Shown: piece by piece, positions 968-55,136 of the stretch
Layout: the number at the start of each line of letters is the position of its first letter
Numbering within the stretch: position 1 is the first letter of the stretch
Assembly: GCF_000384255.1 (NCBI RefSeq)
Contig: NZ_KB913035.1
Location: forward strand, 2,034,808-2,098,807
DNA length: 64,000 nucleotides
Reading direction: 5' to 3'
Origin: Methylotenera mobilis 13
Lineage (GTDB): Bacteria; Pseudomonadota; Gammaproteobacteria; Burkholderiales; Methylophilaceae
Position numbers and translations under genes: made by a program
The notes under the pieces: generated by a model
Database searches by the model: none
The model's input: only the letters and a program-made list of their open reading frames with translations
What the model was told of the DNA's origin: nothing

Positions 968-3508
968 TTATTGCTGTTTCACAGGATCAAACGGATTTGT
1001 CAGCATTCTTAGTAAGAAATCCACATCAACGCATTGAATAAACAAATTTCCCTCATTCGCCTTAATAATCCACTTAATCAAATTGCCGCGTTTATCGTTG
1101 GCAAGTGGCGTCATGCTTATTTGTGTTTGATTAAACTGCGCTACAGAGTGCAAAGCCCCTACCAGCAAGCCTATTTTATGTTGACCGCACATGATGACAA
1201 TCACTTGGCTATTGCTATCAACCACAGATGGAACACCGCTTAATAGATAGCTCAGATCATAAACCCACACATAATTCTGGCCCTTGCCCTCATGCTGAAC
1301 GGCTATCACACCCACACGCTCTGAACGACTACCAATTGACACTGAAGATATCTCTGAGGCCGACAAGGCCTCTAGAACAATTTCCGCTTCTAATGCAAAT
1401 AGCGTCTCATCCACAAAAAAGGTTGCAAACTCAGGATCTGATGACTGTGTAGAGTCAGATTGAATAATAGATGCTGAGTCATTACCAGAACTAAAGTGAT
1501 TTCTCACTTCACCGAACGCATCATAAACGACAGCAATGACATCCTCTTTATATCCATCAGTGACTTTAAACTCTCGATAGCCATTAGACACACTGCAACC
1601 AAGAATGCAGTAATGACCATCACGTATCACAATACGTGACGCGCTTTTACCATTGGGCAACCTGAGCAAGTCCGGATCAATGTCTAGAGTAGAACCTACC
1701 GGACGAGAAGGATCGGTGCTCGAGATAATCTTCGCCTGTCTATCAACGTAAAATGCCTTAATAGATTGATTTTCGGCAATGCCGCCCAGCAACATGGCAT
1801 TAAACTCAGGCGTGGCATCAAAAACAATGCCGATACCACCAACAACATCAACCCCATCAGGTGACATAATCGCTGCATGGTAAATATAAGTAGGATTATC
1901 TTGATAAATTGAACTAGGCTCGAATGGTGAAACATAGTACTGCTGTTCATTACGCAAAGATAACACTTCATTCAGTGTTACATCATCAATAGTCGTGCCT
2001 ATAATTGAACCATTCTCATCAACAGAGTTAGTGCTAGCGATGATAATGCCTTGTTTATCATAAACAAATATACGCGTGTAAACAGTATACAGTTGGTTAA
2101 TGTAATTCAATATCTCTGTAATACGGGACACACTCGCCACATCTACTTTTCCAGAAGCAAGCGCCACTCTCAATTCAGGGGTCACCGCCCACCAACGGCA
2201 ATCATCAGAGCGTTCATATAAATTACGGTCTAGCAAATCAACTAATAAATGCGACATAAACTCAGAATCCTGCAGTCTAGAAGCAAGCACAGTCTCATAA
2301 AGATCATTAATTGATTGAGCAAACAACTCGTTACTTCGTGTACCAGTTTCACTAATCTGGTCTAGTATTGTTTTGAGTTTAAACAACTCACCAGTTTGTC
2401 CAACAGTCATGACCTGACCATTCCACACAACCCGACGAATCGTTGAGGCAGCCGTCATCACCTCATAAAGCGGAGGACAAAAAGACTGTGCATGAGATAA
2501 CAACCCTCTGGCCACTTTAGCATCTAAGGATTTCAGAGCACTCGTTTCCTGCCCAGTAAAAGCAATATCTACAGGCGTCATCACTTGGCCTTGCCAACCC
2601 TCTGGCCCCATATATCCTTGGTAGCCATTAGCTTTAAAAGTAGCAACAAGGTACTCTCGTCCGCCGTATATCATTAATCCTGATTGAGCATCATGATTCA
2701 CAGGCACCACAGCACCTACAGGAATCCAGCGAGGATCACTGGTTTCAATCACCTGCTGATTCTGATCTAGCAATAACATCACAGAACGCAAGCTAGGATC
2801 GCGATGAGACTGGAAAATGCCAGCCATCTCTTCAACGAAGTTAAAACACAAACATAAAATACCAATCACAGCGCCAGTATCTGGATGCAACATACGTTTA
2901 GAATAAATCAGCGCTTTATCTTTGTTTGGGCGCAAATCGGTATGTCGATAAGTTTCTACATAGTCATCAGAGGCTATCGTTTCATGAATCAAAGGATCCA
3001 AACTGCCCTCAATCGGTGTTTCTTGATTAATCTGCACCAAAACGTTGCCATGAACATCGAGAAGGATAATTTCATCATAAACCGTATATTTGCTTCTGTA
3101 AGCTCTTAAGCGCAAGCGTATATCTTCAATACTCCCACCTACACCAGCCACAAAGCTACATAACTCACGATCTGTCGCTAAAAATCCAACATCTGCAGTA
3201 CGCTCATAAAGATTACGCACCAAGATATCGATCACATATTTTGCCTTAGTGCCAATCTCGTTAAACACAGTGGCCACTTTCTCATGCACTAAGCTTAACA
3301 CCAACTCTTTTTCCAACCGATTAAAGCCATCACGGGTTGCAGCCATTGTAGGCAGGATGCTCTTTGCCTCCACTGGGCAGTTCATTTTTGCTGAAGACTC
3401 AATAATTCTCCACATTAAATTTAGCTCATGAAGTGATTGTTCACAACGAACAACATCTCTCATAAAAGGTAAATAATTATCTATTTGAAAAGAAGAAATC
3501 TGACTCAT
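968..3508 (-). CDS. Soluble tandem-Cache sensor protein with C-terminal CheW domain
   Basis: This 846-residue protein has no signal peptide and no clear membrane helix. After an N-terminal helical region of about 80 residues there are two similar sensor blocks, each opening with an NLYER[ST]xD motif (about residues 97 and 440) followed by Cache-like strands (TVYDEIILLDVHG and TVYTRIFVYDKQG). The last 150 residues, from ATFFVDETLFALEAE onward, resemble a CheW/SH3-like coupling domain. A protein of this layout could bind a cytoplasmic ligand and dock onto CheA arrays. Both the function and the exact Cache class are inference. It is monocistronic, convergent with pilU and divergent from the neighbouring cyclic-di-GMP gene. 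Confidence 0.7.
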   Translation of the reverse strand: MSQISSFQIDNYLPFMRDVVRCEQSLHELNLMWRIIESSAKMNCPVEAKSILPTMAATRDGFNRLEKELVLSLVHEKVATVFNEIGTKAKYVIDILVRNLYERTADVGFLATDRELCSFVAGVGGSIEDIRLRLRAYRSKYTVYDEIILLDVHGNVLVQINQETPIEGSLDPLIHETIASDDYVETYRHTDLRPNKDKALIYSKRMLHPDTGAVIGILCLCFNFVEEMAGIFQSHRDPSLRSVMLLLDQNQQVIETSDPRWIPVGAVVPVNHDAQSGLMIYGGREYLVATFKANGYQGYMGPEGWQGQVMTPVDIAFTGQETSALKSLDAKVARGLLSHAQSFCPPLYEVMTAASTIRRVVWNGQVMTVGQTGELFKLKTILDQISETGTRSNELFAQSINDLYETVLASRLQDSEFMSHLLVDLLDRNLYERSDDCRWWAVTPELRVALASGKVDVASVSRITEILNYINQLYTVYTRIFVYDKQGIIIASTNSVDENGSIIGTTIDDVTLNEVLSLRNEQQYYVSPFEPSSIYQDNPTYIYHAAIMSPDGVDVVGGIGIVFDATPEFNAMLLGGIAENQSIKAFYVDRQAKIISSTDPSRPVGSTLDIDPDLLRLPNGKSASRIVIRDGHYCILGCSVSNGYREFKVTDGYKEDVIAVVYDAFGEVRNHFSSGNDSASIIQSDSTQSSDPEFATFFVDETLFALEAEIVLEALSASEISSVSIGSRSERVGVIAVQHEGKGQNYVWVYDLSYLLSGVPSVVDSNSQVIVIMCGQHKIGLLVGALHSVAQFNQTQISMTPLANDKRGNLIKWIIKANEGNLFIQCVDVDFLLRMLTNPFDPVKQQ

Positions 3509-42910: not shown

Positions 42911-42985
42911 CATATTGATCAGCAAATATATGAACGTAGCGGCAATAAATGTAACTGTGAGTGACTGCTTTATTTGTAGAGATGC

Positions 42986-43645
42986 CTAAAAACCAAGACT
43001 CTCTAAGAGCCCATCAACTTCAGACTGATTAATGTTAGTTTCGCTTACATCTTGAGTGGATAGTGTCTGCTGATGATTTAAATTAGGATGATTTTCAATA
43101 TTGACAGTAGAGAAGTCAACTAAAACCTGCAACAACTGCTTTTCCATTTCATTGATTAACTGCGTGATTTTCTTAATGACTTGTCCTGTGAGGTCCTGAA
43201 AATCTTGAGCCATCATAATCTCAAGGAGAATAGCTTTCGTATCATTTGCCCCTTGATCCAAGTGTTGCAAATGTTTGACCGTTTGCTCAGCAACCAGATT
43301 GTATTCACTTTTTAATGAAGGATGACTCAACACAGTTTGCCATTGTTTAACTAACAAGGCCGTACGATCAGTTAAATCGTCTTGTATTGGTATCGCTTTA
43401 TCAGTTGCATTTAATACACGTTCAGCTGCTTGCTCTGTCATTGTTGAGAGGTAATTAAGTCTATCTCTAGTATCTGGAATATCTCGTGCAACCTGCTCCA
43501 AAATTTGACTCAGGCCCAAAGCAGCCATCGTGTCATGTAGAGCTCTGGCAATGTGACCTACTCTATTTAAAATATTTGTATCAGGGTTAGCACTTTGAAT
43601 TAAGTCCAAATTAGCGATAACGGTTTCTGTATGATTAACAATCAT
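42986..43645 (-). CDS. cheZ: CheY-P phosphatase CheZ
   Basis: A 219-residue helical protein that dephosphorylates CheY-P. The catalytic segment [17 protein letters not shown], with the conserved Gln that attacks phospho-CheY, is intact. A long-hairpin dimer layout is predicted, and the C-terminal CheY-binding helix ends [11 protein letters not shown]. Its ATG overlaps the cheY stop (ATGA), so the two are translationally coupled. It is the last gene of the chemotaxis run. Confidence 0.93.
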
Positions 43646-44049
43646 ATCGCTTCTGCCACTTTATGGATTCTTTCAAATATTTTGGATATTTTTTCGTCTA
43701 ATATTTGTGCTGAGAATGGCTTAACAACATAGCCGTTGGCACCTGCTTTCGCTGCCATTAAAATATTTTCTTTCTTCGCCTCTGCTGTCACCATGAGTAC
43801 TGGTAAATGATTAATATCACGATCTGCACGAACATTTTGCAATAGTGTTAAACCATCCATGTTAGGCATATTCCAATCGGTGATAAGGAAATCATAAGTC
43901 CCACTTTGAAGCTTACGCCAGGCAGCAACGCCATCTTCAGCCTCATCCAAATTTGTATATCCGATTTCTTTTAGTAAATTCATCACAATTCTTCGCATGG
44001 TGGAAAAGTCATCCACTACAAGAATTTTCACATTTGGTTTACTGTCCAT
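43642..44049 (-). CDS. cheY: Chemotaxis response regulator CheY
   Basis: A 135-residue single receiver domain. The acidic pair is D13/D14, the phosphoacceptor D58 ([13 protein letters not shown]), the switch Thr T88 and the Lys K110 (VVKPF). The motif [15 protein letters not shown] and the tight link to cheZ mark it as the motor-binding CheY of a flagellar system. The ATG at 44049 gives the usual N-terminus; an earlier ATG at 44061 adds four residues. Neither has a clear ribosome site, and the small upstream gene overlaps the start by 11 bp, so translation probably depends on coupling. Confidence 0.92.
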
Positions 44050-44251
44050 GCAAAGTACCATTAACGTTGTTAGTCATAACCATATGAGAATTAATAGAAA
44101 AATTAGATGTTAATTCCCACTCGATGTGAGTATCTTCTAAATCATCTTCATGAACTCCATCAATGAAGATATTTAAACTAGGCCTACCTTCAGAAAACTG
44201 ATTTCGTCGACTTGTACAGATTATTTGTTCCATGATGAAAGATGAATGCAT
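44039..44251 (-). CDS. Small uncharacterised protein upstream of cheY
   Basis: A 70-residue frame, acidic in the middle ([16 protein letters not shown]). AAGG lies seven bases before the first ATG, and the frame ends inside the start of cheY. I do not recognise it. Its place in a compact same-strand run, 42 bp after the preceding gene and overlapping the next, supports a real gene or at least a leader peptide for cheY. Confidence 0.5.
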
Positions 44252-44293
44252 TTAACGCCTTAAATTTTAACTAGCTGGTCTATCGTTTAACTT

Positions 44294-44668
44294 CTAATGT
44301 GTTGTTTCGCGATCATTTGAACGCAATTCTGCCTGTAAAAAACTTATAATTGCCTTTAGCTTCTGTACATGTTCAAAACTCACTGAGTTGTTAGACTGAT
44401 GTATATTGACTAATATGGACTCTGATAACGCAAAAGTACGTGCGATATGCGTCTGAGATAGCTCCGTCGAATAGACTATTGCTGCAATTTCCAACATCAA
44501 GCGAATTACATTCACTATTGCATCTAATTCATGCATCTCATCATCTGACACGTCTTCAAGCATGAGCAACTCAGCCTGAGCTAGCAACAACTCGGTTTCT
44601 GATAAAAAAACCTCGTAAGTTTCCTCAATAACAACTTCATTTATCTGATGACTTGCTGTCAGCAACAT
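44294..44668 (-). CDS. Small helical protein resembling a CheA P1/Hpt domain without its histidine (B)
   Basis: A 124-residue, acidic, all-helical protein. An excellent ribosome site (TTAGGAG six bases before ATG) supports translation. The pattern EVFLSETELLLAQAELLMLE followed by LDAIVNVIRLMLEIAA and a helix ending SILVNIHQ can be laid over the P1 domain of CheA (FxxEAxELLxxxExxLLxL, then AIFRAAHSIKGGAG). At the phospho-His place there is R56, and the KG motif is absent. By-eye homology only. It is next to a similar protein encoded at 44735-45166. Confidence 0.6.
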   Translation of the reverse strand: MLLTASHQINEVVIEETYEVFLSETELLLAQAELLMLEDVSDDEMHELDAIVNVIRLMLEIAAIVYSTELSQTHIARTFALSESILVNIHQSNNSVSFEHVQKLKAIISFLQAELRSNDRETTH

Positions 44669-44734
44669 TACGCACTCCTAACTAAATTTAATGGCGTAAC
44701 TAAAAATAATTTATCTCATTAAATTTAGTTAAAA

Positions 44735-45166
44735 TTATTTCGTTACTTGACTCAACTCATGATTAAGTAACGTTTGAATAAAGTTAAGATGCTCATCATC
44801 CACAGGAGTATCAAAGCACAAACTATCCAATTGCATTTTTAATGCATCATTCACTTTTATCAGATTACTAATACGTGATTGCGTTAATATCAATTTATTT
44901 TCAATCATCTTCATAAGTAAAAATTCTAAAATAAATGTCATTTCAGTCACGTCATCAAAACTACATAAGGTACTGCCAATCCTGATTATCTTTGTGTTTC
45001 TTAAAATCGCATCCAAGTACTTTAGATGCTCTGTGTTACTGTTGATGTAATGATCGAAGCTCAACGCTAAATTGATTAAAGACGCTGATATTTCTGCTAA
45101 ACCACTTTCTGCAACATTGAAAAACTTACGATGACCTTCTTTAATATAACGCTGACTATCTATCAC
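44735..45166 (-). CDS. Small helical protein resembling a CheA P1/Hpt domain without its histidine (A)
   Basis: A 143-residue, probably all-helical protein. KFFNVAESGLAEISASLINL, then YLDAILRNTKIIRIGSTLCSF and ILEFLLMKMIENKLILTQSRI, follow the spacing of CheA P1 (helices A, B with the phospho-His, C and D). The residue at the His position is K59, followed by I-I-R instead of S-I-K-G. It could therefore dock kinase or receiver domains but not carry phosphate. The start is GTG at 45166, with GGAG ten bases upstream. It sits between a CheY-like receiver and the second such protein. Confidence 0.6.
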   Translation of the reverse strand: MIDSQRYIKEGHRKFFNVAESGLAEISASLINLALSFDHYINSNTEHLKYLDAILRNTKIIRIGSTLCSFDDVTEMTFILEFLLMKMIENKLILTQSRISNLIKVNDALKMQLDSLCFDTPVDDEHLNFIQTLLNHELSQVTK

Positions 45167-45218
45167 CTATATAGCACTCCGTTTTCATGCAAATTCACAA
45201 AATAACCGTCTATAAAAA

Positions 45219-45587
45219 TTAAGACCCAATCACCTTTTGCACAACATTCACTAGTTGCTCTGGATGAAAAGGCTTCACTATCCATCCATTTGCTCCAGCG
45301 GCCTTACCTTCGCTTTTCATTTCAACGCTAGATTCTGTCGTCAACATTAGAATTGGCACTGTTTGGTAAGAGCCTAGCTCACGTAGCTTTCTAATGAGAG
45401 TTAAGCCATCCATCACTGGCATATTATGGTCAGTCAATACAAGGTCTACCGTTTTCACCTTTGCCTTATCTAAGCCATCTTGCCCATCTACGGCTTGCAC
45501 GACCATGTAACCTGCTTGCTCAAGACTAAATGCAACCATTTTTCGTAAAGAGCCTGAATCATCTACAGCTAAAATTGTTTTGGTCAT
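45219..45587 (-). CDS. CheY-like single-domain response regulator
   Basis: A 122-residue receiver with all key residues: D9/D10, phosphoacceptor D53 (LVLTDHNMPVMDG), T83 and K105 (WIVKPFHP). The TTESS and KAAGANGWIVKPF text is typical of a second CheY class often paired with receptors carrying PAS domains. It is directly after the receptor gene and before the two P1-like genes. Confidence 0.9.
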   Translation of the reverse strand: MTKTILAVDDSGSLRKMVAFSLEQAGYMVVQAVDGQDGLDKAKVKTVDLVLTDHNMPVMDGLTLIRKLRELGSYQTVPILMLTTESSVEMKSEGKAAGANGWIVKPFHPEQLVNVVQKVIGS

Positions 45588-45681
45588 CGATATACCCCAG
45601 TCTCTCTATTTGATGTTATTTATAAAGTTTGCAAAGTTTTTAATCGCTTAAATTTCAATTATCTTTATAGATAACTGATAC

Positions 45682-48600
45682 CTAAAACTCTTCCCATCCA
45701 TCTTCATGCAGTTGACTATTACCGAAGACTCTTAGTGGCATGCCTTTGCTTCTTATCAATTTATTATTAATCTGCACAAAAGGTTTAATAGTTTTGAGTT
45801 TGCTTGTGTCAGTATTGGAGCCTAGCAATTTATACGCAGATACAGTTTCTATTAATCCAGCAGCTTGCTCTACTAGCGATTCAGCAGCCGCTGCGGCTTC
45901 TTCAACAAGTGCCGCATTTTGTTGTGTCACTTCGTCCATGCTGGTGATGGCGTTGTTGACTTGGTCAATGCCTGCACTTTGTTCTATGGATGCTGCTGCG
46001 ATTTCACCCATGATGTCGGTGACGCGTTGAACCGAGGTCACGATTTCTTGCATGGTGGCGCCGGCGTTTTCTACTTGTTTGGTGCCTTCTGCGGTTTTGT
46101 TGACGGAGTCGGTGATGAGTTCTTTGATTTCTTTGGCTGCTGAGGCTGAGCGTTGTGCTAGGTTGCGGACTTCTCCGGCAACCACTGCAAAGCCTCGACC
46201 TTGTTCTCCGGCTCTGGCCGCTTCTACTGCAGCATTGAGGGCTAGGATGTTGGTTTGGAAGGCGATGCCGTCTATCACGCTGATGATATCTTCAATCTTG
46301 TGTGCGCTTTGGTTAATGGCGTTCATGGTGTTGACGACTTGACCAACGACTTCTCCACCTTTGACTGCGACACCTGATGCAGCACTGGCTAGTTGATTGG
46401 CTTGTTTGGCGTTTTCCGCGTTTTGTTTTACTGTCGAGGCAAGCTGTTCCATGCTAGAGGCTGTTTCTTCTAGACTAGATGCTTGCTGTTCTGTGCGGCT
46501 TGATAGGTCGGTGTTGCCTGAGGAGATTTCTCCAGCTGCGGTGTTGATCGCCTCACTAGATTCTCTAACGTGAATAATTACTTCGCAAATCTGATCCATC
46601 AACGCATTCACACCATTGCATAAACTAGCAATATCACCGCTTTTACCTTCTAACGGTACTCGATTACTTAAGTCACCATTTTTTGCTTGCTCAATAATAC
46701 TTTGCGTTTCAGCAACAGCAGACTGTAAAGTCAACGCGTTGTTATGCTGAATGGTAATATCAGTTGCATATTTCACAACTTTGAAAGGCCTACCATTCAT
46801 ATCAAAAATTGGGTTATAACTTGCTTGTAACCATACCTCTTTCCCGCCTTTACCAATACGTCTATATTGACCAAACTCAGCTTCACCCTGGGCTAGATTA
46901 TCCCAAAAAGCTTTATATTCAGGACTATTCTGCTCCGTTGCATCAACAAACATGCGATGATGGTTACCAACTATTTCTTTTTCGCTATACCCTGTTACGC
47001 GACCAAAATTATCATTAACCGCGATAATTTTTCCTGTCAAATCAAACTCAACGACCCCTTGTAGTTTATCGATAGCAGCTATCTGCCCTGCATTATCCGC
47101 CGCTTGCAATTTTTGCTCAGTGATATCAATCGTGTAATTAATCACTTTTGATAGCTTGCCATTTACATCGTAAATAGGGTTATAAGATGCTTGAATCCAA
47201 ACTTCTCTCCCATCTTTTGCGATACGCTTATATTGTCCTGCGTCACTGGCTCCGTTAATCAAGTTACTCCATAGCGTGCTGTAAGCTGTACTTTTTGCAT
47301 AAACTGAATCTAATACCATACTTACATGACGACCAATCAGCTCTTTTTCAGTGTAGCCAAGCATCTCTAAATATACTTGATTCGCCTTCAGTATCTTGCC
47401 GTCTAGTGCGATTTCAATCACACCTTGTGATCGATTAATAGCTGATACCTGCCCTTCAAAGTCAGCATTTTTTATTTTCTGGGCTGTAACATCGGTCGCA
47501 TATTGAACAACTTTATATGGATTACCTGAGGCTGAAATAATCGGATTATATGAAACTTGCAACCATATCTGCTTACCGTTTTTACCGATACGTTTAAACT
47601 CACCTGTTACGGCTTCAGAACGTGTTAGTGTTGCCCAGATTTGGCCATAATCATCAACGCCTTGATTAGCAAGGTCAACATAAGCATCATGTTCCTGACC
47701 GACCACTTCATTACGAGTGCATCCCAATATATTTAGATAGATATCATTCACAGCGATTACTTTTCCACTCATATCAAACTCGATGACACCAGTAGATTGA
47801 CTGATTGCTGCTAACTGTCCTTCATACAGGGTTGATTGCTCCTTCACTTTACCCGCTAGCTCTTTCGCCTCATTCAAATTGACACTTAGCGTCGTTTGTG
47901 TGACTTTCAATGCCCTAAGCACACGAGCTAGTTCATTATTACCGCTAGCTTCAAATTGAGCATCCAGTCTGTTAGATTTAATGTTATCAAGCACTTTAAA
48001 TATCACAGATAACGGATTGGAAATCGAACGCATAATAAAATATGCAAAGCAAATCAGAAGTCCCACAACAACAAGCAAACCTGCAATTGTCCAGTTACGC
48101 ATTAACTGATAATTTGCAACAGATGCCTCGTATTCAGCCTTAGCACGATTGCTTTGATATTTAATTAATGCAGTCACATTCGGATGCGCAATGTCATATA
48201 ACATCCTAGCTTTGGTTGAATATAACTTTGTCTTTTCGTAATTATTGTCACGCAATGATGCCACTGCTGGGAGCAATGCCTCTTTTACAAACGCACCGCG
48301 TGTTTCTGCAAACTTATCTGCCAGTAATTTTTCTTCATTGGCAATCTCTGTCGCCTTGTACTTTTCCCATAGCTCAGTAATTTCACCTATATTCTTCTCG
48401 ATAGACTCAGCAGCTTGTGCTGAAGCTTGTGGATCCATTTCCAATTCTGGTGCTACATTATTTGCTTTATAGACTACTTCACTGAGCGCGATACGTAGAG
48501 CTGTTCTATTCTCGAGCATCAAGTTGGAAATGCGACCAAGATCTTCAATCGGTTGCATACGGTCGTTGTAAATCGACATTGTGCGCTGGTTAGCATGGTC

Positions 48601-49176
48601 CATCTCATTAAGAGACATCCAAGACTGCACTATTAGTAAGATTGCAGAGATAGTGACGATTGCCATCAGACGTTGAGATAGTTTTAAATTCAATAAATTG
48701 TATTGAACTTTGCCAATTAAGCCGTTACTCATGACTTTACCTTCATGAATAACCAAATGCTGCGCTTTACCTTCTTTAAACAAGCGATATGCGGCATCTG
48801 CTTCATTAATTTGCTGACGGCTTGGTTTTCTGCGCGCGGAAAGATAACCAACCAATTGACCATTTTCTAGAATTGGAGAAACGTCCGCCATTACCCAATA
48901 GTAATCACCTTGCTTAGTACGATTTTTTACTAAACCAGTCCAAGGTCTACCAAGTTTTAGATTTTTCCAAAGGTCAGCAAAGGCCTCAATTGGCATGTCT
49001 GGGTGCCTAACAATATTATGACTTGACCCAATCAGTTCAGTTTCTGTAAAACCTGAAGTCTTAATAAAGTCATGATTAGCATATGTAATAATGCCCTTTA
49101 GGTCTGTCTTGGTGAGCATAAACTCATCATCCCCAAACAACACCTCATGATTTGTAATTGGCATATTGACCTTCAT
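45682..49176 (-). CDS. Methyl-accepting chemotaxis protein with four PAS domains
   Basis: A 1164-residue receptor. An Aer-like PAS domain (about 10-125, [24 protein letters not shown]) precedes a first membrane helix ([17 protein letters not shown]). A four-helix ligand region of about 180 residues, a second helix ([21 protein letters not shown]) and a HAMP domain follow. Then come three very similar PAS/PAC repeats (about 455-825) and a class-typical signalling domain with [24 protein letters not shown]. The C-terminus ends DGWEEF, matching the xWxxF CheR-docking pentapeptide. The signalling domain is GC-richer than the rest. The first PAS suggests redox or energy sensing, unproven. Confidence 0.93.
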
Positions 49177-49266
49177 CCGACTCCCCTTTGCTGTATTCTC
49201 TATAATTAAACGTTAGCTAAACATCAAACTTTACAGCACATTAACTAACGTAATTTTTGATCTAGA

Positions 49267-49773
49267 TTAAACACTCGCGTCATCAATTAAACCTATTTCC
49301 TGGCTAGCCATCAGCTCTTCAATCGCAACTAAAATTAACATTCGTTCTTCATAAGTTGCCAAGCCGATAATGTATTTAGTATCAATACCGGTTACTAATG
49401 AAGGCATGGGTTCGATTTGCGCTTGATTCAATGCAATGACATCTGAAACACCATCAACGACTACTCCCACAACACGCCCACTTAAATTTAAAACGATCAC
49501 CACTGTGAATTCGTTATATTCAATATTTTCTAGATTAAACTTAATGCGTAAATCTACTATCGGTACAATTTTTCCTCGAAGATTAACAACACCTTTGATA
49601 AAAGTTGGAGTGTTAGGAATTTGTGTTACTGCGTCATAGCCACGAATTTCCTGGACTTTTAAAATTTCAATACCATACTCTTCATGCCCCAATAAAAAGC
49701 TAAGATACTCACCCTCTTCTGAAGGTAACGCATCTGTCAATGGTGCTGATGATGTCATGTCTAGCTCTGCCAT
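49267..49773 (-). CDS. cheW: Chemotaxis coupling protein CheW
   Basis: A 168-residue CheW that links receptors to CheA. The core begins YLSFLLGHEEYGIEILKVQEIRGY and contains IKGVVNLRGKIVPIVDLRIKF and VVGVVVDGVSDVI. It begins the minus-strand chemotaxis run, 90 bp before the receptor gene. CheA itself is not encoded in the window. Confidence 0.94.
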   Translation of the reverse strand: MAELDMTSSAPLTDALPSEEGEYLSFLLGHEEYGIEILKVQEIRGYDAVTQIPNTPTFIKGVVNLRGKIVPIVDLRIKFNLENIEYNEFTVVIVLNLSGRVVGVVVDGVSDVIALNQAQIEPMPSLVTGIDTKYIIGLATYEERMLILVAIEELMASQEIGLIDDASV

Positions 49774-50171
49774 TTATATAACCCATATCCGTTAAGACCG
49801 TAATTTACACCATTAATAATAAATTAATATTAAATATGATATTAAAATGATACTTAATAAATTAAACATTGTCTACTGATAGGTAATTTATTTTATAAAG
49901 ATATTTATTACTTTATTGACGCTAGTCATTGCCTTACTGAAAACTAAAGCAAGTAATTGACGTAATAATTGATAATAATTAGCACACCAAATATCAAATA
50001 TGTATTAGAATTTCGTAAAATCAGTGAGTTAGCGCTTTTTAAACAATGCCTAGCTAAGACTGCCAATTCAAATGTAGTCAAATCGCGGTATTGAAAAATA
50101 TGACTAAAATATGCTCGCTGTAGCTATGTGTAATCCGAATGAACGCTTAATTAACTTCTCAAAGTAGAAAT
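49774..50171. other. AT-rich intergenic region between divergent cheW and the HTH-receiver gene
   Basis: This gap of about 400 bp carries the promoters of the chemotaxis run and of the two-component pair. It is dominated by ATTAATA-like words (49810-49870) and AATAATTGATAATAATTAG (about 49963-49981). No flagellar-type sigma-28 box, terminator or small gene could be recognised. Confidence 0.4.
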
Positions 50172-50774
50172 ATGTCTATAAAAAAATCAGCGCTTAAAAC
50201 ACTCGATTTAATGACAACGACTGACGTAGCCAAAGCACTAGGTGTTACAGTAAGGTCAGTACAGCTATGGGTAGAGCAAGGCGCATTAGAGGGTTGGAAA
50301 ACACCAGGTGGCCACCGTAGAATCACCCGTGCTTCATTTAACAAATTCAATTCAAATGTTGCTTCTGATGAACATAAAGTAACAACGCGTCTCAATGTTG
50401 TCGTTGTTGAAGATAGCTTAGCGATGCAAAAGCTTTATCAAATGACCATTGCATCTTGGCAGCTACCGATAGACATCAAGTTTGTATCAAACGGGTGCGA
50501 AGGTATTATTTACGTCACCCAACACATGCCAGATCTACTCATTACAGACTTAAAAATGCCTGAAATGGATGGTTTTACAATGTTAAAATCTCTACGTGAT
50601 GTAGATACGTTCGCTAAGATGGCAATTGTTGTTGTGACAGGTATGCAGCCCCAAGAGATTGAGGAAAAAGGTGGCTTACCAAGAGGTGTTAGACTATATG
50701 GCAAAAGCCCAGTGCCATTTTGGGAAATGCGTGAATTAATGCAAGGTTTAATTGATAGAAAATTAGAAGCTTAG
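50172..50774 (+). CDS. MerR/excisionase-type HTH regulator fused to a receiver domain
   Basis: A 200-residue protein with the DNA-binding domain first, the reverse of the usual order. The winged HTH (TTTDVAKALGVTVRSVQLWVEQGAL, then TPGGHRRITRASF) spans about 15-57. The receiver spans about 74-195, with E80/D81, phosphoacceptor D126 (LLITDLKMPEMDG), T156 and K178. It should bind DNA in response to phosphorylation by the kinase encoded 4 bp downstream. The HTH type recalls BldC/excisionase proteins. Confidence 0.85.
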   Translation: MSIKKSALKTLDLMTTTDVAKALGVTVRSVQLWVEQGALEGWKTPGGHRRITRASFNKFNSNVASDEHKVTTRLNVVVVEDSLAMQKLYQMTIASWQLPIDIKFVSNGCEGIIYVTQHMPDLLITDLKMPEMDGFTMLKSLRDVDTFAKMAIVVVTGMQPQEIEEKGGLPRGVRLYGKSPVPFWEMRELMQGLIDRKLEA

Positions 50775-50778
50775 TCGC

Positions 50779-51834
50779 TTGAATACTGATAAAAAAATCC
50801 CCGCGGACGTTACTCAAATTATTGATGCTTGTCCTTTCGGTATTGTGACGGTTAACTCGGCCAGCATTGTAGATTATGCGAATACTGCATTTACTAAAAT
50901 TACTGGCATTGAGATAGAGTCTATCCTCAATACGCCTAACCATGTAATGTGGAAAACTTTACTGAAGTATTATTCAGTAGACGGCAATATGAAAACATAT
51001 ATTGGTGGTGTGTTGACGCTTCGAGCTAACAACTCACTCAACGTGGTGAGATTAAGCTGTCAGTTACCAAAACAAAGTAACACAAAACAGATCCTTTATT
51101 TTCAAGACATTACTGCAGAGTCTGAAGTTGATCGAATGAAAAGTGAGTTTCTTTATTCAGCAACGCACGAACTGCGCAACCCGATTGCAATCATTTTTGG
51201 ATTCTCTGAACTGCTCATCAATAACGAGTTTGATCGTACTGCTTCGCTTGATATTATTGAAACAATTCATCAACAGGCAAAAGATCTCAACCACCTGACA
51301 AATGAGCTATTGGACATTGCAAGAATAGAATCTCGCAAAGGTAAGGATTTTGCGATATCAGAGGAATCTGTCGGTAAAATACTGCTCACAATTGAAAAAG
51401 AATGGTGTGGCAGAGTTGGCAAGGAAAGAATCAGACTCACATTACCATCACAAATACCCAAGGTATTAATAGATAAAGACAAAATAAAACAAGCAATTAC
51501 GAACGTAATGAGTAATGCTTGTAAATATTCGCCTGAAGATAGCGTAGTTTCTATCGATATCGCTTTAGATAAAGTCATGTCTGACAGCATGATTGGTATT
51601 AGTATTCATGATGATGGTTTTGGGATGTCAACTGAAGACATCAGTCATTTATTTGAGCGATTTTGGCGCTCAGATCGATTTAGGCACATACCAGGCACTG
51701 GCTTGGGCATGTCAATCGTGAAGGAAATTGTTGAATATCATCAAGGTGTTATCGACATTGCCAGCGCAGTGAATCAAGGCACTACAGTGACAATATGGTT
51801 GCCCGTCTACATTGATTTAGCGTCTCTGGAATGA
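50779..51834 (+). CDS. Soluble PAS-domain histidine kinase
   Basis: A 351-residue cytoplasmic kinase. A PAS domain (about 8-115, ending FQDITAESEVDRMKSEF) precedes HisKA with H130 in SATHELRNPIA. The ATPase domain has the N box NVMSNACKYSPED, the G1 box HDDGFGM, the F box LFERFWRSD and the G2 box GTGLGMSI. The start is TTG at 50779, four bases after the upstream stop, which points to coupled translation. No closer ATG exists. Likely partner: the upstream HTH-receiver protein. Confidence 0.88.
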   Translation: MNTDKKIPADVTQIIDACPFGIVTVNSASIVDYANTAFTKITGIEIESILNTPNHVMWKTLLKYYSVDGNMKTYIGGVLTLRANNSLNVVRLSCQLPKQSNTKQILYFQDITAESEVDRMKSEFLYSATHELRNPIAIIFGFSELLINNEFDRTASLDIIETIHQQAKDLNHLTNELLDIARIESRKGKDFAISEESVGKILLTIEKEWCGRVGKERIRLTLPSQIPKVLIDKDKIKQAITNVMSNACKYSPEDSVVSIDIALDKVMSDSMIGISIHDDGFGMSTEDISHLFERFWRSDRFRHIPGTGLGMSIVKEIVEYHQGVIDIASAVNQGTTVTIWLPVYIDLASLE

Positions 51835-51875
51835 TAAAGACTCTCCCGATTAAACCAACAATCAATTAAGTAAGG

Positions 51876-53090
51876 CTAGGTATAGTCCATTTGTGATAAC
51901 ACCTGATTCGTCCAAATTAACGCCTCATTTTGACAAGCCATGATTACACTATTACTCGTATGCAATTTTTCTTTGTAGTTCGCTACATGCTCAAACTCAG
52001 CCGCCTCTAGTGCTTCAGCCAATGCTAACAAATCTCCAGCCAACCCAGTCCTATTAAGCAGTGCATCTTGTATTGTTTTGGCTAGACTCATTTTGACCAC
52101 AATGCTTTCCATCGTGTCATTAAGTAACATATCAGCTAAAGATAAAATGCCAGTAATAAAAGCAGCATCATGATGCACGATTGAACCGTGATGATTACAT
52201 TGCGTACTCATTAGCTCCATAAATTTTGCACGCCATATAACTGTGTAAAGCAACATTGTCGGCATTTTCACATGACTATCAATGACGTAAAGCATCACTT
52301 GCAACCAGCGCATGATTTGTCCACGCCCCAAAATCATAATGGCATGCCTAATCGAACTTATTTCTTTTCCAGCACCAATCGCAGCTGAATTTACTATTTT
52401 AAGCATTTGTAAACTTAACGCAGGATTTTCTCTAAAGAACCCTTCTAACCTAGCATCACAGCCATCTGAATTTAACTCTGCAATCAATTCTAAGATTGTA
52501 TGCACGCTCAAAGGCAACTCTTTATTTAAGCTTACTTTCATCCCTTGATAGTAGCGGCCTTGAATAAATTTGATACTTGATAAATTAGCACGACTTTTAT
52601 CTTTATCATCATTTACATCTGTAGCTAAAATATTGAGAGATGGGGAACGCAACGCTTGTATTAATCGAGAGCTATCGTCATCATTAATATTAACTTTTAC
52701 AAAAGTCATATAAGGGATTAGCGTTGCTAGCTGATCAGATCTAATCTGAGTGCCTGTTGCTAAGTAATACCCAGAACTGGATAGCGCTGACAATCGATTC
52801 AATAAGGCTGGTAATATAAACTCACACTCATCAAGCTCAAATACAATCCTATCCATAGGCAATGTGGCATTGACCTCGTTCATCAGAAATAGCTGATTAA
52901 CTTTTATGAAAATCTTATAGTTACTCATCAAACCATTTGATTCAGGTCCTAAAAACGGACTTAGTGCTGACATAACATTTTGCGAATGATTGTTCACTTC
53001 CATTTGTGTTTCATCAATCACTAATGCTATCCCAACCATGTTGCTGTGTTCATCAGTGATGGGCTGATAGGAAACCAATACATCTTGCAT
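51876..53090 (-). CDS. YuxH-like protein: degenerate EAL plus HDOD domain
   Basis: A 404-residue protein. The N-terminal half follows the EAL fold but lacks its catalytic motifs (no EAL, DDFG or EGVE text; it starts SYQPITDEHSNMVGIALVID). The C-terminal half is HDOD (LNSDGCDARLEGFFRENPALSLQMLKIVNSAA, then IRHAIMILGRGQIMRWL). This order matches the YuxH family, regulators without phosphodiesterase activity. AGGAG six bases upstream favours the ATG at 53090 over the TTG at 53096. It converges on the histidine kinase and lies downstream of a receiver gene on the same strand. Confidence 0.85.
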   Translation of the reverse strand: MQDVLVSYQPITDEHSNMVGIALVIDETQMEVNNHSQNVMSALSPFLGPESNGLMSNYKIFIKVNQLFLMNEVNATLPMDRIVFELDECEFILPALLNRLSALSSSGYYLATGTQIRSDQLATLIPYMTFVKVNINDDDSSRLIQALRSPSLNILATDVNDDKDKSRANLSSIKFIQGRYYQGMKVSLNKELPLSVHTILELIAELNSDGCDARLEGFFRENPALSLQMLKIVNSAAIGAGKEISSIRHAIMILGRGQIMRWLQVMLYVIDSHVKMPTMLLYTVIWRAKFMELMSTQCNHHGSIVHHDAAFITGILSLADMLLNDTMESIVVKMSLAKTIQDALLNRTGLAGDLLALAEALEAAEFEHVANYKEKLHTSNSVIMACQNEALIWTNQVLSQMDYT

Positions 53091-53142
53091 TGCCAACTCC
53101 TAGCTTAAATTTAACATTCACAGTGATTGATTGACATCACGA

Positions 53143-53532
53143 TTAAAACAATTTGAAATTTAGATCTTGTGTTAGTCGTGCCAATAATGTTTTTAGCACC
53201 ATAGGACTAAATGGCTTGATAAGATAGGTATCAGCACCCACATCAGCCCCTTGATGAATATCCTTAACCTGCCCTTTACCTGTTAATAATGCAATGTATG
53301 TATGTTTAAGATGTGGGTCGTTTTTCACTGCCTTACAAACCTGAAATCCATTCATTTCACCAGGCATCATAATATCCAATAAAACAATATTGGGACGCCA
53401 CGCTTTAATCGCATTTAAAGCATCCACACCATTAGATACTTCTTTAAGCTCATAAGCGTCACCTGCAAGCGTAAGTTTCAGCAAGTTGCACACCTCTGGA
53501 TTGTCATCCACAATTAATAACTTACAAGCCAT
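53143..53532 (-). CDS. Stand-alone receiver-domain response regulator
   Basis: A 129-residue receiver. Acidic residues D9/D10, phosphoacceptor D53 (IVLLDIMMPGEMNG), Thr in ALLTGKG and Lys in LIKPFSP are all present. The Pro-Gly-Glu-Met loop after the Asp and the DVGADTYLIKPF text resemble receivers of the PilZ/HDOD-associated type. It is 52 bp upstream of the YuxH-like gene and probably co-transcribed with it. Confidence 0.88.
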   Translation of the reverse strand: MACKLLIVDDNPEVCNLLKLTLAGDAYELKEVSNGVDALNAIKAWRPNIVLLDIMMPGEMNGFQVCKAVKNDPHLKHTYIALLTGKGQVKDIHQGADVGADTYLIKPFSPMVLKTLLARLTQDLNFKLF

Positions 53533-53754
53533 TCTGATTAAGCCTTCATTGGTATCATATTTATAAAATAATGCTTAATTACAATCATCATTAACATCAC
53601 ATTTATTGGCTTATCTCGCCATCTAAAAACCAGCTATACATCAGTTTTTACTATAAAAAACTGCTGCGAATAAGCCTTACTTCTGAAAAATCATCAAATA
53701 TCGACACATACAACCGATTAATAAAAAAATTAATTGTCATAATATTACACTTTA

Positions 53755-53790
53755 TTTGATAAATTTGATAAATTTGATAAATTTGATATT
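53755..53790. repeat. Four tandem 9-bp repeats (TTTGATAAA)
   Basis: Three perfect copies of TTTGATAAA and a fourth, altered copy (TTTGATATT) lie in the 335-bp gap between divergent receiver genes, about 80 bp upstream of the pseudo-receiver start. They may form a bent or operator-like element, or be simple slippage. Otherwise this gap shows only AT-rich sequence. Confidence 0.6.
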
Positions 53791-53867
53791 TAATGTAACA
53801 ATTAAGTCGTGCACTAATTCAACTTTAAAGTGCGTTCATAACTAATATTAAATAGATGGGGTGAAAA

Positions 53868-54245
53868 ATGGAGAGAATGTTAATTGTTGATGAAGGCTAT
53901 GATTTACATAACAGCCTATTGCTCACATTTGGGTACGGGGAATATAAAATCACCCAAGCAATGAACGAAAACCAAGCAATCAAAGTAGCAGAAACTGAAC
54001 ATCCTGAAATCATCATCGTAAACTTAACGGGTGATAATGAAAGTGAGCTGGCAACTTGCAAAAAACTAAAGTCTATTCCTCAGCTTCATCATAGCCATAT
54101 CATTTTGCTCACTTCGCAATATCAGCAAGATGAAACATCAAAACACATTGAAAGTGTTGCGAACTATTGTCTACCTAAGCCATTTTGCCCCAATAACCTG
54201 ACAACAGTACTCACTGGGATTAGAAGCAAGAAACTACTGAGTTAA
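53868..54245 (+). CDS. Pseudo-receiver: receiver fold with Asp-to-Asn at the phosphorylation site
   Basis: A 125-residue receiver-like protein. It keeps an acidic residue pair (D8/E9), T82 (ILLTSQ) and K104 (CLPKPF), but the phosphoacceptor position is N52 in IIIVNLTGDNES. Phosphorylation in the ordinary way is therefore unlikely, and it may work as a docking or phosphate-independent switch. GGGG lies upstream of the ATG. It is monocistronic, with a hairpin behind it. Confidence 0.75.
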   Translation: MERMLIVDEGYDLHNSLLLTFGYGEYKITQAMNENQAIKVAETEHPEIIIVNLTGDNESELATCKKLKSIPQLHHSHIILLTSQYQQDETSKHIESVANYCLPKPFCPNNLTTVLTGIRSKKLLS

Positions 54246-54281
54246 CCCAACAGTATTAAAAAATCCTGAACGCCTCAACAA

Positions 54282-54313
54282 ACAATCCTTTTGATAACGC
54301 TCAAAAGGATTGT
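54282..54313. terminator. 13-bp perfect hairpin between convergent genes
   Basis: ACAATCCTTTTGA (54282-54294) pairs with TCAAAAGGATTGT (54301-54313) around a TAACGC loop. It lies where both the pseudo-receiver and tauE-like transcripts should end, but no T tract follows it on either strand. Confidence 0.45.
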
Positions 54314-54323
54314 GATTGCTAGA

Positions 54324-55136
54324 TTAAAATAAGCTAAACACCATCATCAAGGCGATAGATACGCTAATGAAACCGAAGGTAAGCTTAGACAGGTAAGTTG
54401 AAATTTTATGTGAGATTAATTTTCCGACTAAGCTACCAATCAGTGCAGCTGATACAAACGGAATCGCAATATGCAGATTAATGCTGGTGTAACTTGCATA
54501 AGAAATAACGCCTACTAATGAAACTAATGCGGTCATTGTTAACGAGGTCGCCACTACCATTCTATGTTCTAGGTTACTAATTTTTAATAAGCTAGGCATT
54601 GCGACAAAACCACCACCAACCCCTAATAAACCAGAAATAAAACCAGCAGCAGACCCAGTCAATAATAATCGTTGAGTACAAGATGCGGTCCAAAACAACC
54701 TAGATGTTGCAGGATTCAATTCACAGGGTGTTGGACTAGTTTGAAACAAATTATCTTGTAAATAGCGGGGACTTTTAGCGCTGACTAAAGCTTGCCACCC
54801 CACATAAAATAGTACTAAAGCAAATAAAATTTGTAGCCAAAGAGAAGGTATTTTCTGCGCAAGAAAAACACCTATTGGTGCCATGATAATGCCCATTAAG
54901 GCCAGAAGTGCAGCTGCCTTATATCGAACAACACCTTGCTTTAATCCAATCACCGCAGCTGTGCCTGCTGCTACGGACACAGCTAACAATGCTATTGGTG
55001 CAGCGTCTTTAACGCCTAGATGTAAAAAATACATCAACAATGGTAGTGACAGAATTGCACCACCCGCGCCAGTGATGGACATCAGAATGCCAATCAATAC
55101 ACCTAATATGATTGCGATTAGATTAGGTTCAATCAT
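54324..55136 (-). CDS. TauE/SafE-family sulfite or sulfur-anion exporter
   Basis: A 270-residue membrane protein with about eight hydrophobic segments in two repeats. These are marked by GILMSITGAGGAILSLPLLMYF and GFISGLLGVGGGFVAMPSLL, the typical TauE/SafE glycine motifs. It is last in the bigR-sulfurtransferase-tauE run and overlaps the preceding gene by 8 bp. By analogy with the bigR operons of Xylella and Agrobacterium, it should export sulfite formed from sulfide oxidation. Confidence 0.88.
   Translation of the reverse strand: MIEPNLIAIILGVLIGILMSITGAGGAILSLPLLMYFLHLGVKDAAPIALLAVSVAAGTAAVIGLKQGVVRYKAAALLALMGIIMAPIGVFLAQKIPSLWLQILFALVLFYVGWQALVSAKSPRYLQDNLFQTSPTPCELNPATSRLFWTASCTQRLLLTGSAAGFISGLLGVGGGFVAMPSLLKISNLEHRMVVATSLTMTALVSLVGVISYASYTSINLHIAIPFVSAALIGSLVGKLISHKISTYLSKLTFGFISVSIALMMVFSLF

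Follow-up and report, generated by a model that had tools for sequence, protein, structure and literature searches.

A kinase-less chemotaxis gene run in Methylotenera mobilis 13 with two small proteins of apparent CheA P1 descent

Results

The 64,000-nucleotide stretch of Methylotenera mobilis 13 analysed in this study (the window; C1:2034808-2098807 of the single-contig 2.80-Mb genome G000) carries a chemotaxis gene run, which on the minus strand from 49773 to 42986 comprises cheW2, mcp2, cheY2a, the genes of two small proteins termed P1a and P1b, an open reading frame (ORF) for a protein of 70 amino acids (aa), cheY2b, and cheZ2. No CheA, CheR or CheB is encoded in the run, as judged from its eight ORFs and a Pfam domain search. 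We lean towards the view that it arose from the flagellar che cluster and serves as a chemosensory satellite, a receptor and output plug-in for a remote CheA, in which P1a and P1b would be phospho-dead docking proteins. A first-pass annotation of the window had already described one-directional, tightly spaced genes, the missing kinase and adaptation enzymes, and P1-like small proteins, and each of these descriptions was borne out. In gene order the intergenic gaps are 90, 94, 52, 66, 42, -11, and -4 bp. The conserved ATG start of cheY2b at 44049 lies within the 3' end of the 70-aa ORF, and the last gap represents a 4-bp overlap of cheY2b and cheZ2.

Profile comparisons indicate that P1a (143 aa, GTG start, 44735..45166, minus strand) and P1b (124 aa, 44294..44668, minus strand) are stand-alone descendants of the CheA P1 domain. 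Alignment of hidden Markov models (HMM-HMM, hhalign) with 29 Methylophilaceae CheA P1 sequences, which apart from the own CheA were picked by their AHSIKG motif, gave probabilities of 98.4% (E 5e-15) for P1a and 95.8% (E 7e-9) for P1b, compared to 0.2-8.3% for the negative controls (reversed profiles, CheZ). Alignments to the P1 domain of the own CheA scored 143 and 93, respectively, versus maxima of 55 and 62 in 500 shuffles each. A mere helical-bundle artefact as the source of the P1-likeness was ruled out by these low-scoring controls and shuffles. The NCBIfam CheA model matched P1a at its P1 end with 1e-4, far below the cut-off, and a PDB search with the P1a profile returned the CheA P1 structures 8c5v and 1i5n as top matches (E 0.001-0.002). 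The Pfam Hpt model matched neither protein at E up to 1. AlphaFold 2 predicted five helices for P1a and four for P1b (predicted local distance difference test score, pLDDT, of the best models 87.7 and 78.0), and thus bundles of four to five helices as in CheA P1 and HPt domains. Profiles of P1a and P1b did not align with each other (probability 0.5%), hence a simple tandem duplication is not visible.

In both proteins the phosphorylation site has decayed. All 29 CheA rows have the phospho-histidine, but in its column the 9 P1a rows show Lys (7 rows) or Arg (2 rows), and the 21 P1b rows Arg (17 rows) or His (4 rows). Lys or Arg thus occupies this column in 26 of the 30 P1a and P1b rows (Lys in P1a and Arg in P1b of the window), and the HxxKG motif is incomplete in all 30. 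At position +3 P1a has Lys (7 rows) or Arg (2 rows), followed by Ile or Val at +4, and all 21 P1b rows have Leu or Met at +3 and Glu or Asp at +4. With the histidine mostly replaced and HxxKG broken throughout, phosphotransfer by P1a and P1b is unlikely, and a role of the pair as phospho-carriers does not fit the absence of the histidine from 9/9 P1a and 17/21 P1b rows. The proteins instead resemble pseudo-HPt proteins, which are derived from HPt domains, have lost the histidine and are maintained by selection; the four His-bearing P1b rows are exceptions. It is very unlikely that P1b, or a residue that escaped detection, still operates in a local phosphorelay with the His-bearing P1b as the active form. 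Although His does occur at the site in these four rows, they are 95-97% identical to the Arg form of the window, share the Leu/Met and Glu/Asp positions with all other P1b rows, and are not matched by any invariant His in P1a. Furthermore, all 8 P1b rows below 50% identity carry Arg.

The two proteins have retained different parts of the P1 surface. With helix limits that we set ourselves, identity to the own CheA in helix A is 54% for P1b and 33% for P1a of the window, and in the B-C loop plus helix C it is 43% for P1a and 13% for P1b. By the same limits, helix E is 33% identical in P1a and 6% in P1b, and in helices B and D both proteins are alike in this respect. In published work, P1 contacts CheY6 through helices A/B and the B-C loop (PMC2817712), and structures and models of the P1-P4 contact involve P1 helices A, B, and D, naming D14 and E15 (PMC10653900). 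E24 of P1b, which aligns with E15, is invariant in 21/21 rows, and P1a has Val at this place in both genomes aligned. From the retained helices and contact residues compared to these interfaces we infer CheA as the partner of P1b and a CheY as that of P1a. Both would be P1 domains freed from the kinase, and since the phospho-histidine was lost they are most likely docking proteins. P1b with its retained helix A would dock on the P4/P1 surface of CheA, and P1a, in which the B-C loop and helix C are preserved, would dock on a CheY. While the module is expressed they may act as decoys and dampen or bias phosphotransfer. A more far-reaching and so far tentative idea is that bacterial pseudo-P1 proteins split the P1 surfaces between them in this way and, encoded on a plug-in block, reset the output of the one flagellar CheA array of their host whenever the block is expressed.

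Both genes appear to be maintained. The ratio of nonsynonymous to synonymous differences per site (pN/pS) is 0.14 for P1b between the relatives G110 and G109, 0.42-0.47 when P1b of the window is compared with either of them, and 0.46 for P1a between the window and G110, with synonymous sites close to saturation. These ratios indicate purifying selection, clearly for P1b and from one pair for P1a. Reading frames are unbroken and of near-constant length in 21/21 P1b and 9/9 P1a rows, and 28 columns of P1b are invariant.

Several observations weigh against docking proteins within a satellite module. A PDB sequence search with P1b did not recover CheA, and the mean pLDDT of P1a was below 55 in 2 of the 5 models. 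Lys at +3 is retained in 7 of the 9 P1a rows, and four close P1b variants (P0008, P0010, P0012, P0013) have a His at the old phospho-site, albeit without HxxKG. Moreover, the P1b rows are redundant, with 13 of the 21 (that of the window counted) showing 93% identity or more to P1b of the window. The counterpart of the P4 contact D14 (PMC10653900) is Ser or Ala in P1b and thus was not kept. In a scan for sigma-28 promoters nothing sigma-28-like stood out upstream of cheW2, where scores were within background. Finally, all that is left at the place of P1a in G109 is a relic some 30 residues long (alignment score 59, compared to at most 43 in 2000 shuffles); P1a is therefore dispensable and the pair not obligatory. 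This relic, the loss of the His and of the complete HxxKG, and the fast divergence of the pair (45-46% identity between window and G110, compared to 67-87% for the neighbouring module genes) would also suit functionless, decaying leftovers of a lost second CheA beside a simple receptor/CheY/CheZ duplicate. We regard this explanation as rather unlikely, because the unbroken frames, the low pN/pS ratios in spite of nearly saturated synonymous sites and the invariant P1b columns are hard to reconcile with decay.

The remaining genes of the run link it to the flagellar che cluster. Genome-wide domain counts yielded one CheR, one CheB, and two H-kinase_dim proteins, namely a CheA of 768 aa and a second CheA-type kinase of 1696 aa, which we take to be ChpA-like; CheW domains were found at six places. 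The whole-genome check proposed in the first-pass annotation thus located the sole CheR, the sole CheB, and a flagellar CheA with Hpt, CheY-binding, H-kinase_dim, HATPase, and CheW domains. All three are encoded in a standard che cluster (C1:1398185-1423187), from which about 672 kb separate the run. This main cluster contains flhDC- and motAB-like genes (named by eye), a CheZ-like gene, cheY, cheA, cheW, four mcp genes, fae, cheR, cheD, cheB, cheY, and cheZ. CheW2 (49267..49773, minus) is 79% identical to its CheW across 148 aa, CheY2a (122 aa, 45219..45587, minus) 83% to the CheY encoded directly upstream of cheA, CheY2b (43642..44049, minus) 74% to the CheY preceding cheZ, and CheZ2 (42986..43645, minus) 53% to its CheZ. 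In Pfam the CheW, receptor, two receiver and CheZ domains of the run were above cut-offs. CheY2b also exceeded the NCBIfam CheY equivalog cut-off, and CheW2 and CheZ2 gave strong equivalog matches that remained below theirs. CheY2a, CheY2b, and CheZ2 retain the CheY and CheZ motifs, including a ten-residue stretch and the C-terminal LLESLGF of CheZ2; which of their residues are catalytic is our assumption.

Run and main cluster thus share paralogous cheW, both kinds of cheY, cheZ, and the receptor hairpin, and P1a follows a cheY just as cheA does in the main cluster. They differ in that the main cluster holds a full CheA with His48 as well as CheR, CheD, and CheB, where the run has P1 pieces only, and in gene order, since cheW and mcp precede cheY and P1 in the window but follow cheY and cheA in the main cluster. 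By these comparisons the run is a diverged and rearranged paralogue of the main cluster. Phylogenies with 27, 26, and 31 rows placed the second copies of CheZ, CheY2b, and CheY2a each in a clade of its own, supported by 100/100 or 100/99. The best non-self match of CheZ2 in 200 sampled genomes of the order was the own CheZ1 (52%), followed by other Methylophilaceae (50-51%) and by others at most 47% identical (matches with E up to 1e-40). Therefore, duplication within the family is the likeliest origin, although the placement of the second CheZ clade (100/100) among the Methylophilaceae is weak and long branches were flagged.

The receptor MCP2 (1164 aa, mcp2 45682..49176, minus) provides hints to a common array. 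It comprises four PAS stretches, a TarH-type four-helix sensor, HAMP, and the MCP signalling hairpin, and is probably a PAS-type receptor for redox or energy signals. Around the hairpin tip it shares 110 of 110 residues with mcpA, the receptor that comes first behind cheA-cheW in the main cluster, as expected for a hairpin compatible with the main array. A 660-bp stretch of mcp2 and mcpA has a DNA identity of 96%, with 89% at third positions. The orthologues are far more distant at third positions, with 50% (G110) and 42% (G109) for the mcp2 of the window and 49% for its mcpA compared to G109. Consequently, the mcp2 hairpin has recently been gene-converted with mcpA in the genome of the window, a conversion not seen in G109 or G110, whose tips nevertheless share 107-108 of the 110 residues with MCP2 of the window. 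The C-terminal tail is GWEEF in MCP2 of the window and DWEEF in MCP2 of G110 and G109 as well as in three of the four main receptors; we take WEEF to be a docking pentapeptide for CheR and CheB. Converted hairpin and tail point to the remote flagellar array. MCP2 and CheW2 would accordingly join the array built by the single remote CheA, and the single remote CheR and CheB would dock on the tail for adaptation. Phosphorylated CheA would pass its phosphoryl group to CheY2a and CheY2b, and CheZ2 would dephosphorylate both. The earlier suggestion that the module feeds into a remote CheA is hence favoured by the single remote enzymes, the hairpin and the tail.

The run occurs as part of a block that is present or absent as a whole. 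Occurrence was assessed in 187 genomes of the family, 52 of the genus, and 200 or 300 of the order. Within the family, a second cheZ at this place was found in four genomes (G000, G109, G110, G145), a His-less stand-alone P1a in two (G000, G110) and P1b in three (G000, G109, G110); the contigs of G145 break inside the module, so that the P1 counts rest on the other carriers. Of the family genomes in which CheZ matched more than once, G109, G110, G145, and G141 were examined; extra matches from other genera and a short contig-edge fragment in G157 lie outside this set. The second cheZ of G141 (L053) is accompanied by a cheY but not by the rest of the module. Around the run, a block of approximately 11.4 kb was found in 4 of the 52 genus genomes. 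In the close relative G114 it is missing (window positions 42917..54351, edges approximate), since rne directly adjoins the gene at 54324-55136 and similarity of the flanks extends to about 42916 and resumes at about 54352. The copies of the window, G110, and G109 were read from end to end, and none of the three has a cheA within the run or next to it; none thus represents a complete CheA-based pathway. A cheA just outside the run was also ruled out by its flanks, which are rne and the helix-turn-helix (HTH)-receiver and kinase genes in the window and likewise in G110, G109, and G145.

Beyond the run the block comprises, divergent from cheW2, a gene for a protein with an HTH domain of the MerR/excisionase type and a receiver (50172..50774, plus strand), whose homologues of at least 92% identity were restricted to the four carriers among the genus genomes. 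It adjoins a gene for a PAS/HisKA histidine kinase (TTG start, 50779..51834, plus) present in the block of all four. Variable members are an HDOD-domain protein (51876..53096, minus), which G110 and G145 share but for which G109 gave no match, and a single receiver protein (53143..53532, minus), which was found in G145 but in neither G109 nor G110. Another single receiver protein (53868..54245, plus) forms the right block edge in all four carriers. A pair of WTGATA half-sites, 11 bp apart (49836..49852, plus), lies as a putative operator in the cheW2/HTH-receiver intergenic region of all four carriers, and four half-sites with 9-bp spacing (53756..53788, plus) precede the receiver gene at 53868, where each other carrier has three. 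The window has 7 tandem pairs, of which these two sites account for 4 and the remaining 3 lie elsewhere (4972, 24975, 41199); a 19-kb stretch of G114 and the 100-kb main region contain none. In 500 first-order Markov sets of the two intergenic regions, the mean was 0.03 pairs and the maximum 2, compared to the 4 observed. The repeats suggest a local regulator, perhaps the HTH-receiver protein. A scan for sigma-70 promoters found 26 sites versus 26.7 expected.

The kinase raises the question whether the run is a pathway of its own, in which this non-CheA kinase phosphorylates CheY2a and CheY2b with P1a and P1b as adaptors. The joint presence of the kinase and HTH-receiver genes in all four carriers, their absence from G114, and the tandem WTGATA sites ahead of two block transcription units are compatible with this, but the kinase adjoins the HTH-receiver protein as its likely partner, and CheW2 and the MCP2 hairpin remain closely similar or identical to their main-cluster counterparts. 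We therefore consider such a pathway quite improbable.

A search of 5.8 billion proteins, which finds only relatives sharing exact 5-residue words, retrieved 19 P1b and 7 P1a relatives, and those with organism names were all from Methylotenera. The P1a profile (P1a only, not P1b) matched in 132 of 300 sampled order genomes. Seven matches in short frames were examined, all of which contained AHSIKG and were CheA fragments at contig edges or split frames; a shorter frame in G140 from the family search also carries AHSIKG. Other short frames, in G218 (C12), G277, G388, and G439 of the order and G077 of the family, lie outside the examined set. A wide distribution of His-less stand-alone P1 was thus rejected as far as sampled. 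In two order genomes (L084:915-1394, L085:987-1493) a His-bearing CheA P1 forms its own ORF, which overlaps the remainder of cheA in a different frame, either by draft error or by a natural split.

The 70-aa protein (44039..44251, minus) belongs to no known family in Pfam or NCBIfam. Five database homologues have the identical length and 77-96% identity, but among 51 other genus genomes only two chance-level matches were found (E 0.18, 0.22), and the ORF is absent from the module copies of G110 and G109. If P0005, a P1b 98% identical to that of the window, and P0031, a 70-aa protein of only 77% identity, share one contig (the longest contig is 63264 for both), the 70-aa protein would evolve much faster than P1b.

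Other features were noted in the main cluster. A homologue of the formaldehyde-activating enzyme (Fae), identified by Pfam, is encoded between receptors and cheR (L010:18501-19061; C1:1418501-1419064) and at the same place in L089 and L054. A 182-aa CheZ-like protein (L010:2318-2863; Pfam CheZ E 9e-4, below cut-off; FQDLTSQ motif) precedes the cheY ahead of cheA, and G109 and G110 have an ORF of equal length and similar start at this place. The hairpin DNA of the receptors at C1:1413095-1415605 and 1415674-1418295 (L010) does not differ across 660 bp (identity 1.00 after rounding), which again points to gene conversion among receptors. In the window itself, an 846-aa protein (968-3508, minus) combines a weak Cache-type match with a C-terminal CheW domain and has no Pfam MCP or kinase match, which indicates an unusual adaptor-type sensor.

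Discussion

In the openly accessible literature no match was found for the module composition or for a pseudo-P1 protein in chemotaxis, in agreement with the first-pass annotation, to which no described system of this composition was known. The contents, however, are mostly a subset of main-cluster gene kinds, together with truncated and diverged pieces of cheA and the 70-aa protein, and hence make the module a satellite of derived origin and not a novel kind of system. As in our module, the domains of the split CheA3/CheA4 of Rhodobacter sphaeroides are distributed over separate polypeptides (CheA4: PMC2829493). In contrast to P1a and P1b, its P1 keeps His51 (PMC2817712). This P1 also works with P3-P4-P5 partners.

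Mixed arrays of paralogous Che proteins have been described for Che1/Che4 of Azospirillum brasilense (PMC6759762), and Agrobacterium fabrum combines a single CheA with two CheW and two CheY proteins (PMC12654446). Paralogous Che proteins that assemble with or are served by one kinase are also what we propose for the module. In contrast, A. brasilense has both CheA1 and CheA4, and the abstracts on the two species mention no stand-alone P1-derived proteins. Caulobacter HmrX is a stand-alone bacterial protein whose model resembles CheA P1, but unlike P1a and P1b it has a candidate phospho-His, H81 (PMC11481889). Arabidopsis AHP6 is an HPt-derived protein without phospho-His that inhibits a phosphorelay (PMC3572949). 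AHP6 shares the missing histidine with P1a and P1b, but derives from a plant cytokinin HPt and not from CheA P1, and its inhibition is known, whereas inhibition by P1a and P1b would be a prediction.

If the satellite reading holds, a kinase domain would have been turned by nature into a phospho-dead regulator of bacterial chemotaxis, in parallel to plant AHP6. P1 sequestration and liberated P1 are among the topics of PMC10653900, and the debated effect of free P1 docking at CheA P4 on kinase output would become testable in nature. For the carriers in this family, a block that is either present or absent would add a receptor and an output branch to an existing array without a kinase of its own.

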